A stretch of DNA of 64,000 nt from an uncultured Roseovarius sp. Its GTDB lineage: Bacteria; Pseudomonadota; Alphaproteobacteria; Rhodobacterales; Rhodobacteraceae. This document shows positions 48,733 to 55,679 of the stretch, in pieces. The notes under the pieces were generated by a model. That model was given only the letters and a program-made list of their open reading frames with translations, ran no database searches and was not told the origin of the DNA. The stretch covers positions 248,001 through 312,000 of the forward strand of contig CANMBU010000003.1 in assembly GCA_947496175.1 (NCBI GenBank), in the 5' to 3' direction. Positions within the stretch are counted from its first letter, which is position 1. Each line of letters opens with the position of its first letter. The position numbers and the translations under genes are program-made.

Positions 48733-49515
48733 TTGAAAGACTACAACACTATCACATTCGACATCACCGATGACGACATCGCGGTGCTGACGCTCAACCG
48801 GCCAGACAAGATGAACGCGCTCAATGCACAGATGCGGGCCGAGATCACCGATGCAGCACGCGTGGCCGGGCGTAAGGCGCGGGTTCTGGTGATGACCGGC
48901 AATGGCAAGGCGTTTTGTTCCGGTCAGGATCTGTCGGATACCGGTCGTGTGTCCGAGCTTGATCTGGAGCGGGTGCTGCGCGACGAATACGTGCCCATGC
49001 TGCACGCCATTGGAAATTGTCCGGTGCCCACAATCAGCGCCGTGAACGGGCCGGCGGCAGGGGCAGGGGCCAACCTGGCGCTGGCGGCGGATGTGGTGAT
49101 TGCATCCGAGAACGCCTATTTCCTGCAGGCTTTCACGCGCATTGGCCTCATCCCGGATGCCGGCGGCACCTTCTGGCTGCCGCGCCAGATGGGGGCGGCC
49201 AAGGCGATGGGGGCTGCCCTTTTCGCCGAACCCATCAGCGCACGGCAGGCCGATGACTGGGGCATGATCTGGGAAGCAGTCGATGAGGCGCTGTTTGAAG
49301 ACCGCTGGCGCGACCGGGCGGCGCATCTGGCCAAGGGGCCGACGCTGGCCTATGCCAACCTCAAACAAGCCATCCGCGGCAGCTGGGACAACGATCTCTC
49401 GGGTCAGCTTGACCTTGAAGCGCGGTTGCAAGGCGATTGTGGGAATTCCCGCGATTTTCAGGAAGGCGTGCTGGCGTTCATTGAAAAGCGCCCGGCGGAG
49501 TATGAGGGGCGGTGA
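48733..49515 (+). CDS. Enoyl-CoA hydratase / isomerase (PaaG-like)
   Basis: Crotonase-fold enzyme of 260 residues: CoA-binding NRPDKMNALN, oxyanion-hole segments GKAFCSGQDLSD and NGPAAGAGANLALAADVVIA, and catalytic-region FTRIGLIPDAGGTFWLPRQMG with Asp in place of the paired-Glu arrangement of mitochondrial hydratase, as in PaaG-type isomerases. TTG 48733 is chosen because GGAGGG lies just upstream; GTG 48715 is in frame but overlaps that site. Pathway (phenylacetate or other acyl-CoA) cannot be fixed; other paa genes are not nearby. Confidence 0.85.
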   Translation: MKDYNTITFDITDDDIAVLTLNRPDKMNALNAQMRAEITDAARVAGRKARVLVMTGNGKAFCSGQDLSDTGRVSELDLERVLRDEYVPMLHAIGNCPVPTISAVNGPAAGAGANLALAADVVIASENAYFLQAFTRIGLIPDAGGTFWLPRQMGAAKAMGAALFAEPISARQADDWGMIWEAVDEALFEDRWRDRAAHLAKGPTLAYANLKQAIRGSWDNDLSGQLDLEARLQGDCGNSRDFQEGVLAFIEKRPAEYEGR

Positions 49516-49579
49516 TGTTTCTGCGATGGAGTTGAGGTCGGCTTTGAGGCCATTCAAGACCTCTGCTCATCGCGCCCAT

Positions 49580-49643
49580 GGCACGGAATCAAGGGGCGTA
49601 GCCCCGCCGTGCCAGCGCCGGACCGGCCCTATGGGCCGGCGCT
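49580..49643. repeat. Structured intergenic element, copy 1
   Basis: Two adjoining hairpins. First: GGCACGG (49580-49586) pairs with CCGTGCC (49607-49613), enclosing AATCAA and an inner stem GGGGC-GTA-GCCCC. Second: AGCGCC (49614-49619) pairs with GGCGCT (49638-49643), with a GGACC bulge and an inner stem GGCCC-TAT-GGGCC. A diverged copy lies 210 bases downstream. No protein-coding function is apparent in 49516-50010, which otherwise holds no gene I can support. Confidence 0.65.
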
Positions 49644-49789
49644 TTGTCTGGCCTGGGCGCTCCGAAAATCTGGCTGACTGACGTGTCGGGGATAAAGCGC
49701 ATCGGTCATACGTCGGATGCGCCGTCCCCCAGTCCGACGCTGTCACGGCTTGTGTTGGACGGCAGCAGTGAGCCCAAGAAGACTCCTCT

Positions 49790-49852
49790 CGCGCGGAATC
49801 AAGGCGCGTAGCGCCGCCGCGCGATCGCCAGACCGCCCCCCGGGCTGGCGAT
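49790..49852. repeat. Structured intergenic element, copy 2
   Basis: Same architecture as copy 1: CGCGCGG (49790-49796) with CCGCGCG (49817-49823), enclosing AATCAA and GGCGC-GTA-GCGCC, then ATCGCC (49824-49829) with GGCGAT (49847-49852), an AGACC bulge and GCCC-CCC-GGGC. Unpaired bases are conserved between the copies while four stem positions change in compensating pairs, which points to selection or shared origin at the level of folded structure. Confidence 0.65.
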
Positions 49853-50010
49853 TGGTCCACGTGGGCGCTGAGATCAACGAATTCGCAGGCTTGGCTGCCA
49901 TAAAGTGACCTGAACCAATGGCATGTCGCCACCCCGCGGTCTGGCCATCGCGCGTCTTCGCACTCCAATTGGCTATGGCAGCTCCACCCGCAATGCAGTC
50001 ATCAAACAAA

Positions 50011-50046
50011 AACCACCCTCACAAGCGCATGTAAGGGTGGTTTTTT
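50011..50046. terminator. Rho-independent terminator at the gltA 3' side
   Basis: AACCACCCT (50011-50019) pairs with AGGGTGGTT (50034-50042) and is flanked by T/A runs on both sides (TTTTTT on the plus strand, TTTTTG on the minus strand). It lies 35 bases past the gltA stop and would terminate gltA; it can work in both directions. Confidence 0.85.
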
Positions 50047-50080
50047 ACTTGAGATCAAATTTTGCGTTGCCCCGACAGGA

Positions 50081-51376
50081 CTATCGCTTCTCCATATCCA
50101 CATAGTCCCGCAGCGTCTCGCCCTGATAGAGCTGACGCGGGCGGCCGATTTTGAGTTGTGGGTCGGCGATCATTTCTTTCCATTGTGAAATCCAGCCCAC
50201 TGTGCGGCTGAGTGCAAAGATCGGGGTGAACATCGAGGTGGGGAAGCCCATCGCATCCAGAATGATGCCGGAATAGAAGTCCACATTCGGGAACAGCTTC
50301 TTCTCGGCGAAATACGGGTCCGCCAGAGCCTGTTTTTCAAGCTCTTTGGCAACCTGAAGGGTGGGGTTGTTTTCCACCCCCAAGAGATCCAGAACCTCAT
50401 CGGCGGATTGCTTGAGAACCTTGGCGCGGGGATCGAAATTCTTGTAGACCCGGTGGCCAAAACCCATCAGGCGGAAATCATCGTCCTTGTCTTTGGCGCG
50501 GGCGATATATTCCGGAATGCGGTCAACCGAGCCAATCTCGCGCAGCATTTCAAGACAGGCCTGGTTCGCCCCGCCATGCGCCGGCCCCCAGAGACAGGCA
50601 ATGCCCGCGGCGATACAGGCAAACGGGTTGGCGCCGGAGGAAGATGCCAGACGCACTGTGGATGTCGACGCATTCTGTTCGTGATCGGCGTGCAGGGTAA
50701 AGATCCGGTCCATCGCGCGGCTCAGGATCGGGTTCACCTCATAGTCTTCGGCGGGCACGGCAAAGCACATGCGCAGAAAGTTCGAGGCATAGTCCAGCTC
50801 ATTGCGGGGATACACAAACGGCTGGCCCAGTGTGTATTTGTAGGCCATCGCCGCGATGGTCGGCATCTTGGCAATCATGCGGATCGAGGCGACTTCACGC
50901 TGCCAGGGATCGGAAATGTCGGTGCTGTCGTGGTAGAAGGCGCTCAGTGCGCCGACGACGCCCACCATGATGGCCATCGGATGCGCATCCCGGCGATAGC
51001 CGCGGAAGAGGAAATGCATCTGCTCATGCAGCATGGTGTGCATGGTCACGCGGTTCTCAAAATCCTCCAGCGTGGCCGCATCGGGCAGTTCGCCATAGAG
51101 CAGAAGGTAGCACACTTCGAGGTAGTGCGACTTCTCGGCGAGCTGATCAATCGGGTAGCCACGGTGCAGCAGCTCGCCTTTGCCGCCATCAATGAAGGTA
51201 ATCGTGCTGTCGCAAGAGGCGGTTGAGGTAAAGCCCGGATCATAGGTAAACACACCCGCCTGACCATAGAGTTTGCGAATGTCGATGACATCCGGTCCAG
51301 CTGTTGGCGAATAGATCGGCAGATCATAATCAGTGCCATCAATTGTCAGTTTTGCGGATTTTGTGCTTTCGGCCAT
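50081..51376 (-). CDS. gltA: Citrate synthase (type II, hexameric)
   Basis: Condenses oxaloacetate and acetyl-CoA at the entry to the TCA cycle. The 431-residue product is of the long Gram-negative, NADH-sensitive type, with [15 protein letters not shown] (catalytic His), [15 protein letters not shown] (His and Arg), the Asp-containing NVDFYSGI, and the N-terminal [30 protein letters not shown] 51376 has GGAG upstream; four codons earlier there is another in-frame start. It is followed by a strong terminator. Confidence 0.97.
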
Positions 51377-54984: not shown

Positions 54985-55679
54985 CTTCGGATCAGCCCGA
55001 CCAGCTTGCCCTGAAACTTGACCTTGTCATCGGGCAGAACACGCGTTTCATAGGCCGGGTTCGCCGCCTCAAGTGCGATAGCATTGCCCCGGCGGTAGAA
55101 CTTTTTCAGGGTTGCTTCCTGATCCTCAACGAGGGCCACAACGATGTCGCCATTATCGGCCGAGTTGGTTTCGCGAATGATCACCACGTCGCCGTCATTG
55201 ATGCCGGCATCAATCATCGAGTCGCCCTTAACTTCAAGCGCGTAATGCTCGCCCGGGCCGCTGATCATATCGCCCGGCACGGCCACATTTCGGCTCGCAT
55301 GGGCAATCGCCTCAATCGGCACACCGGCGGCAATCCGGCCCATCAAAGGCAGTTCCATCACCTGTGCGGCATCAACCGGTTGCGCATTGGCAGGCTGTGG
55401 CGTGTCGGGTTTGTCACCCTCGATCACACGCGGGGTAAAGCCCGGAGCGCTGTCGCTGATCATGTTGTCCGGCAGTTTGACGATCTCAAGCGCCCGCGCC
55501 CGATGGGCGAGACGACGGATAAATCCACGTTCTTCCAGTGCGGTGATCAACCGGTGAATGCCGGATTTGGACCGCAGATCAAGCGCATCTTTCATCTCGT
55601 CAAAACTGGGCGGCACACCGTCGCGCTGCACCCGTTTATGAATGAACTCCAACAAATCGAGCTGCTTCTTTGTCAGCAT
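54978..55679 (-). CDS. lexA: SOS repressor LexA
   Basis: LexA of 233 residues: winged helix-turn-helix (about 1-65, [29 protein letters not shown]), self-cleavage site Ala118-Gly119 in MGRIAAGVP, and catalytic dyad Ser154 (KGDSMIDAG) and Lys192 (EATLKKFYR). GGAGGAA precedes ATG 55679. An alphaproteobacterial LexA box overlaps its promoter (55715-55743), so it represses itself. It converges with comEC, overlapping by seven bases. Confidence 0.96.

Follow-up and report, generated by a model that had tools for sequence, protein, structure and literature searches.

Two copies of a discrete repeat of about 170 nt lie head to tail, in the same orientation, between two convergent genes of an uncultured Roseovarius sp. 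Each copy is read here, with somewhat better than even confidence, as a non-autonomous, fold-dependent mobile repeat whose plus-strand fold is recognized in trans. The family is probably one of small mobile elements undescribed in the sources searched. Its units are discrete and dispersed, their fold is under constraint, and they vary at sites shared between genomes. What we infer is that the units transpose, and that a protein recognizes their fold. The window, that is, the whole stretch of DNA analysed, comprises 64 000 nt (contig CANMBU010000003.1, positions 248,001 to 312,000, forward strand).

The two copies occupy a 565-nt gap (49516–50080). A plus-strand enoyl-CoA hydratase-like gene stands on one side and a minus-strand citrate synthase-like gene (gltA) on the other; these names were taken from a preliminary description of the sequence and from reading of the translations. 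As that description held, the gap is, as far as checked, the sole gene-free stretch of more than 500 nt in the window: a rough gene caller gave two longer gaps, both of which contain plausible genes that it missed. An inverted repeat with 19-nt arms and AAAAA and TTTTT ends (50008–50045) lies next to the citrate synthase gene, on its 3' side, and is probably its terminator.

Two adjacent hairpins had been reported in each copy, at 49580–49643 and 49790–49852, and were found as claimed, loops and bulges included. The paired differences between the copies are real in the outer stem (G:C/C:G and A:T/G:C), the inner stem (G:C/C:G) and hairpin 2 (G:C/T:A), which also holds an unlisted G:C/A:T change. 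The hairpins are the 5' parts of a longer, sharply bounded element, not the whole of it. A 49-nt ungapped core recurs at 84% identity 210 nt further on, and the repeat extends about 105–110 nt beyond the reported hairpins, to 49751 and 49958. Homology among 15 copies from the same genome likewise begins with hairpin 1 and covers about 170 nt. A covariance model of 179 positions (R2), built from these 15 copies and matching them by construction, aligns to 49579–49758 (171.4 bits) and 49789–49965 (182.4 bits), copies 1 and 2 themselves being among those used to build it. Two weaker R2 matches in the window, at 55400–55431 (E 0.0014; in a presumed coding region) and on the minus strand at 49614–49643 (E 0.41), were taken as chance. 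Across 128 non-redundant flanks, information drops to near zero outside the unit, which gives it sharp boundaries. The GGCAGC and TGAGCCC stretches of the 38-nt spacer resemble those beside other copies. The pair of subfamilies, A then B, is likewise present in the relative G054, and is therefore probably older than the split between the two genomes.

Table 1. Coordinates of the two elements and their parts in the window.
Feature	Position	Strand	Sequence or basis
Element copy 1, subfamily A, ~172 nt	49580–49751	+	R2 covariance model and flank boundaries
Copy 1 hairpin 1 (H1)	49580–49613	+	GGCACGG, AATCAA, GGGGC-GTA-GCCCC, G, CCGTGCC
Copy 1 hairpin 2 (H2)	49614–49643	+	Sequence and predicted fold
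Copy 1 conserved centre, GGGGATAAAGCGC; family consensus CTTGGCNGNCATAAAGTGC	49688–49700	+
Copy 1 3' segment	49719–49751	+	Complementary to H1 3' arm and H2 5' arm (X), and to H2 3' arm (Y)
Spacer between copies 1 and 2, 38 nt	49752–49789	+	Contains GGCAGC and TGAGCCC
Element copy 2, subfamily B, 169 nt	49790–49958	+	R2 covariance model match
Copy 2 hairpin 1	49790–49823	+	Sequence and predicted fold
Copy 2 hairpin 2	49824–49852	+	Sequence and predicted fold
Copy 2 conserved centre, CTTGGCTGCCATAAAGTGA	49890–49908	+
Copy 2 3' segment	49926–49958	+	Complementary to H1/H2 middle

The anatomy of the family was taken from an alignment of 93 copies, from which copies above 80% identity or outside 168–184 nt were left out. 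H1 follows the consensus GCGCGG-AATCAA-GG(nn)C-GNA-G(nn)CC-G-CCGCGC, and H2 ATCGCC.GACCG...CGG..(T)GGCGAT. A conserved centre, CTTGGCNGNCATAAAGTGC, precedes a 3' segment with the consensus CGCCA.CCCGCGGTC.GGCGAT.GCGCGGCT. This last segment is an inverse repeat of H2 and the H1 3' arm, so the 3' end of the element is complementary to the middle of the hairpin pair; in copy 2, the inverted repeat 49811–49836/49936–49961 is 85% complementary. The unit begins with GCRCGG and ends with GCRCGGCT, the left-end motif thus recurring at the right. Among 159 distinct matches, the H1 loop is GNA in 121 and its closing pair, judged by alignment, is C-G in 151. The inner stem has 4 or 5 bp in 129 of them and 3 bp in 11 (3–5 bp in 140). 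The bulge AATCAA is kept in 65 of the 93 copies. The bulge also carries a GANTC site, GAATC in the window (49586–49590 and 49796–49800), and GANTC is present in 77 of the 93; CcrM methylation of this site could link the element to replication.

Copies elsewhere are numerous, and the preliminary interpretation is thus not refuted by a lack of further ones. R2 matches occur in 58 of 100 genomes in one sample and in 148 of 295 in a second, slightly overlapping one. Split by group, the first sample has matches in 58 of 60 genomes of the genus and in none of 40 from the class's other families; the 148 of 295 Rhodobacteraceae genomes correspond to 147 of 294 genera. The surveys of the family and of the relatives scored nine and 27 candidates per genome, respectively, with stricter filters. 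Because so few candidates were scored, weak carriers may be missed, and copy numbers are taken from separate genome counts. The own genome has 26 R2 matches, 23 near full length and three shortened (L044 and L045 are such shortened copies), and ten relatives have 93, 45, 54, 69, 40, 57, 34, 134, 1 and 2. Within one genome, subfamily B copies 88–96% identical over 214–243 nt are found at separate locations. Homologous copies at many non-homologous sites make this a dispersed intergenic repeat family. An exact-pattern search of named genomes returned at least 119 stretches. The genera among the matches listed include Sulfitobacter, Roseovarius, Salipiger, Pseudaestuariivita, Shimia and Ruegeria, and the rest of those listed are unnamed Rhodobacteraceae or Rhodobacterales bacteria and metagenome-assembled genomes; less familiar genus names were presumed to belong to Rhodobacterales. 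Plasmids of Salipiger and Pseudosulfitobacter hold partial matches (eight records). Phage origin was rejected: one subfamily B copy had no match among phage records at blastn sensitivity, and two exact patterns had none among viral contigs.

Two copies are too few for covariation to be significant. The H1 and H2 fold scores z = −2.55 in copy 1 and −2.10 in copy 2 against 200 shuffles, and fold alone is therefore only modestly unusual. The covariation first noticed between the two copies gained strength as 15 and then 93 were aligned. In the 15 own-genome copies, double changes fall in 7 of 23 predicted pairs. The 93-copy alignment was built without structure, from copies found with the structure model. 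In it, 96.6% of H1 and H2 cells are paired and 12 of 20 pairs carry double changes; the double-change cells number 149, compared with 39 on average in shuffles. Helix X, a long-range one of 20 pairs that joins the H1/H2 middle to the 3' end, is 91.9% paired and has double changes in 14 pairs (194 cells; shuffled, 61). Helix Y is 97.4% paired, with 33 double-change cells against nine in shuffles. When partners are slid by 1–3 columns, the paired share drops to 29–44% for the hairpins and X, and to 22–64% for Y. Compensatory changes thus exceed both shuffled and slid controls, neither of which is a phylogenetic null, in all three structures. The shuffle counts are no probabilities, since the copies are related, and copies that keep the structure are favoured because they were collected with a structure model.

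The hairpins H1/H2 and helix X are mutually exclusive, and both covary. A local 3'-end hairpin, H3, was rejected: it is 80.8% paired, less than X or Y, though above shuffles on some measures (62 double-change cells against 29). Because H3 also exceeds shuffles, the folds are not cleanly separable. RNAalifold picks part of H1 with X and Y, and not H2. Minimum-energy folds include X in 88 of 93 copies under RNA parameters and in 72 under DNA parameters. The predicted energetically favoured fold of the whole 170-nt unit is thus the long-range one, which differs from the hairpins first reported. Alignment columns 51–170 and 55–165 covary, although H2 pairs neither of them. The left end, an internal segment and the right end, read at columns 4, 39 and 183, co-vary as triples: G-C-G in 56, A-T-A in 17 and C-G-C in nine of the 93 copies. 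Each of the two end sequences is complementary to one and the same stretch inside the element, and the plus strand can therefore adopt two mutually exclusive conserved folds. The triples are cited in support of a more specific proposal, which we consider unlikely. One internal guide would pair alternately with identical left and right ends, and the bistable plus strand would present both to a non-Y1 recombinase; the repeat would then represent a class of single-strand-folding mobile elements new to the sources searched.

Paired changes might owe nothing to selection on the fold if a decaying repeat underwent quasi-palindrome correction by template switching. Between the near-identical copies L079 and L080 (or L097) the inner stem is swapped symmetrically, which is the outcome expected of such correction. 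We nonetheless hold this explanation to be very doubtful: bulge and GNA loops are conserved, helix X spans more than 100 nt and covaries as well, and the mismatch pattern of H2, described next, is not predicted.

Mismatches carry information on the strand that folds. In H2, G-T and A-C mismatches stand at 46:0 in the 93 copies and at 71:5 in 159 less filtered matches. This tolerance of G-T, and hardly of A-C, points to folding of the plus strand; H2 looks like a hairpin of that strand, as RNA or as single-stranded DNA. The corresponding ratios in H1 are 5:6 and 14:24 (the boundary pair accounts for 15 of the 24), and X leans the opposite way in the 93 copies, at 24:55. H2 by itself thus carries the strand argument, since H1 has no G-T bias and X the reverse one. 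Helix X has the look of a DNA inverted repeat, or of one decaying with no strand preference. Under DNA energies, most copies fold more stably as the minus strand (the plus strand is lower in 18 of 93), which lends no help to the single-stranded-DNA reading.

Placement among genes is skewed. Of 124 non-redundant copies, 61 lie in convergent gaps and four in divergent ones; tandem gaps contain 31 in one orientation and 28 in the other. The same rough caller gives nine convergent, 40 tandem and eight divergent among the 57 gene gaps of the window. The convergent enrichment (p ≈ 5e-18) assumes independence, and the context statistics rest on rough gene calls for copies many of which are related by descent. 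The flank, duplication and context statistics left out matches below 165 nt, with short flanks or with near-duplicate flanks; two flank comparisons, that of outer-stem complementarity included, dropped only identical flanks. The three plasmid matches examined, from the eight records, also sit between convergent genes. Cores at most 160 nt apart are arranged head to tail at nine loci (eight when the pair in the window is counted together with its G054 ortholog as one) and opposed at two, two overlapping spurious pairs being left out.

A skew of this kind is what a bidirectional terminator or gene-insulation module between converging genes might produce, with H2 and its TTT tail stopping transcription. 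The 61 convergent copies, the three plasmid matches and one terminator-like match, at H2 of copy 1, agree with such a role. Terminator-like sites are nevertheless at chance level (one found; shuffled mean, 0.7), the T tail is short, and at 50008–50045 gltA already has beside it a strong inverted repeat that includes a T run. Several species have nothing, or genes, in the same slots, and avoidance of promoters would yield much the same placement. By the test of an intrinsic terminator, whose hairpin and T run follow the direction of the upstream gene, the repeat is none: orientation is unbiased and the scan is at chance. We regard the terminator explanation as very unlikely.

Functional RNA was the other half of the preliminary suggestion of either a functional RNA or a mobile repeat requiring its fold. 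The repeat family is well supported; the RNA half has received no direct support. In such a reading, the plus strand would be transcribed and would alternate between the two hairpins and the long-range helix; it might, for instance, be a module at 3' ends for regulation or RNA stability, or a multi-copy small RNA. The two covarying, mutually exclusive folds, the long-range energy minimum in 88 of 93 copies, the 46:0 ratio in H2 and the conserved centre all fit it. The even split of orientations in tandem gaps (31 against 28) speaks against a cis RNA transcribed from the genes alongside. The window was compared with 4227 Rfam families: none matched at gathering score, and under relaxed thresholds the best hit on the element had E 9.1. 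No sigma-70-type promoter match was found in 49400–50150, and copy number ranges from 1 to 134 between related genomes. A functional RNA appears quite unlikely on balance.

We return to the mobile repeat. Variation at shared loci is of several kinds. Of the G000 loci, 12 have an orthologous core among those fetched from G054 and G031, and at three of these 12 the subfamily differs; for one of them, the upstream flank can be aligned only at a greater distance. Eleven slot comparisons over eight core loci were made from pairs with both flanks within about 3 kb; left out were L033, L037 and L079 (one flank), pairs 8–14 kb apart, L083 in G000, L024 and L029. Nine of the other alleles hold 0.5–2.5 kb of other DNA instead of the core. 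G031 keeps the core at the L080 locus and adds a gene for a 340-aa rve/HTH protein; at the L081 locus, G000 lacks the core and the nearby flank. The shared flank usually stops 5–60 nt from the core, with exceptions at 82, 89 and 126 nt. None of these 11 comparisons revealed a clean recent insertion at high flank identity. At L039, the gap in six other species is short and gives no model match; flank identity there is 69–85%. An apparent empty site at L165 (G054), compared with L032, was rejected as an internal deletion that left two core ends, with GGC at the junction.

The slots at L097, L080, L081, L036, L022 and L039 are filled in other Roseovarius by unrelated genes between flanks that are almost the same (alleles L361, L363, L364, L366, L369 and L370, in that order). 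The genes encode ADI/DDAH-like, sulfotransferase and Hint-domain proteins and proteins with no Pfam match. It is as if the core slot were exchangeable.

Mobility would require the fold. A trans-acting protein would recognize the single-stranded (or extruded) plus-strand fold at the ends of the unit, and would copy or move it with no target duplication. Insertions outside promoters and genes would be the ones to survive. No mover was found. Y1_Tnp is absent from the own genome, and 130 of the 148 carrier genomes have no match to it. The element occurs in 18 of 30 Y1-bearing genomes of the family and in 130 of 265 others (p = 0.34). With absence in the own genome and no association in the family, a Y1/RAYT transposase is unlikely as the general present-day mover, and identity with REP/RAYT (REPIN) systems was rejected on the same grounds. 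No longer form with the same front end was found in the own genome. Scanning of offsets in 128 non-redundant copies revealed no target-site duplication, although old copies could have lost theirs; a standard MITE of a DDE transposon was rejected for want of one.

MITEs in general are small, carry no gene and have inverted-repeat segments. The Rhodobacteraceae repeat shares these features, with an outer inverted motif in a minority of copies; it differs in having no target duplication, no parent transposon that could be found, and core ends that are not simple terminal inverted repeats. The ends of IS200/IS605 elements and integron attC sites are single-strand hairpins that serve as recognition sites, and IS200/IS605 end sequences pair with an internal guide. 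The present repeat may be compared with these; it has no link to a Y1 transposase and carries no gene.

In kind, the repeat may be said to resemble ERIC or enterobacterial repeat units (RU) and REPINs. RU-1 measures 127 bp and RU-2 168 bp, according to PMC2759123, where such repeats are intergenic, 100–200 nt long, present in many copies and read as MITE-like mobile sequences, as here. They belong to other bacteria, and two alternative covarying folds have been examined in the Rhodobacteraceae repeat alone. REP, BIME and REPIN sequences are also extragenic palindromes in many copies, with two inverted units about a spacer (PMC3733652 and PMC3116915). Their units measure 20–40 nt and bear a GTAG or CGTC tag; by this measure the present repeat, at about 170 nt, with GCRCGG and GCRCGGCT ends, no such tag and no Y1/RAYT link, is not a REP or REPIN unit. 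The HRC-8-4 motif (PMC8632094) is a structured RNA candidate found only in Rhodobacterales, mainly between cco operons, and terminator-like. It shares with the repeat its confinement to that order and its hairpins, and is set apart, going by its description in the same text, by the dispersal of the repeat. Searches of an open-access library, with PMC3733652, PMC2864571, PMC8632094, PMC3281130, PMC3646047 and PMC12306157 consulted, turned up no description of the repeat; subscription papers, or open-access ones outside this set, may contain one.

Half of the sampled Rhodobacteraceae genera carry the repeat, with up to 134 copies in the genomes counted, and it has no matching Rfam model. If mobile, it would offer a natural system for fold-dependent transposition outside the known Y1 enzymes, and would probably contribute to intergenic variation at the ends of genes. 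If an RNA, it would be an abundant uncharacterized two-state one. Whichever reading holds, its presence could mislead intergenic annotation, the prediction of terminators and the calling of small RNAs in carrier genomes.

Further sequences adjoin the core in some copies. An outer inverted motif near TTGGCCTGAAGCGGACGTT lies some 32 nt upstream and 27 nt downstream of the core, mostly at near-constant spacing (examples are L126, L129, L163, L108, L115 and L071). It is present on both sides in eight of 128 non-redundant copies, at a threshold of at least 12 of 19 matches, and may be the end of a larger unit. An outer stem closing all copies was rejected. The complementarity of a copy's own upstream and downstream flanks (mean 16.3) matched that of a far control (16.3) and barely exceeded that of swapped partners (15.4), and the motif is therefore claimed for a minority only. 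Palindromes of the type GTCATCCCCGACTTGATCGGGGATCTC adjoin some cores (L041, L042, L043, L050, L088 and L094) and bear a resemblance, no more, to the CGTC-tagged alphaproteobacterial REPs of PMC3733652.
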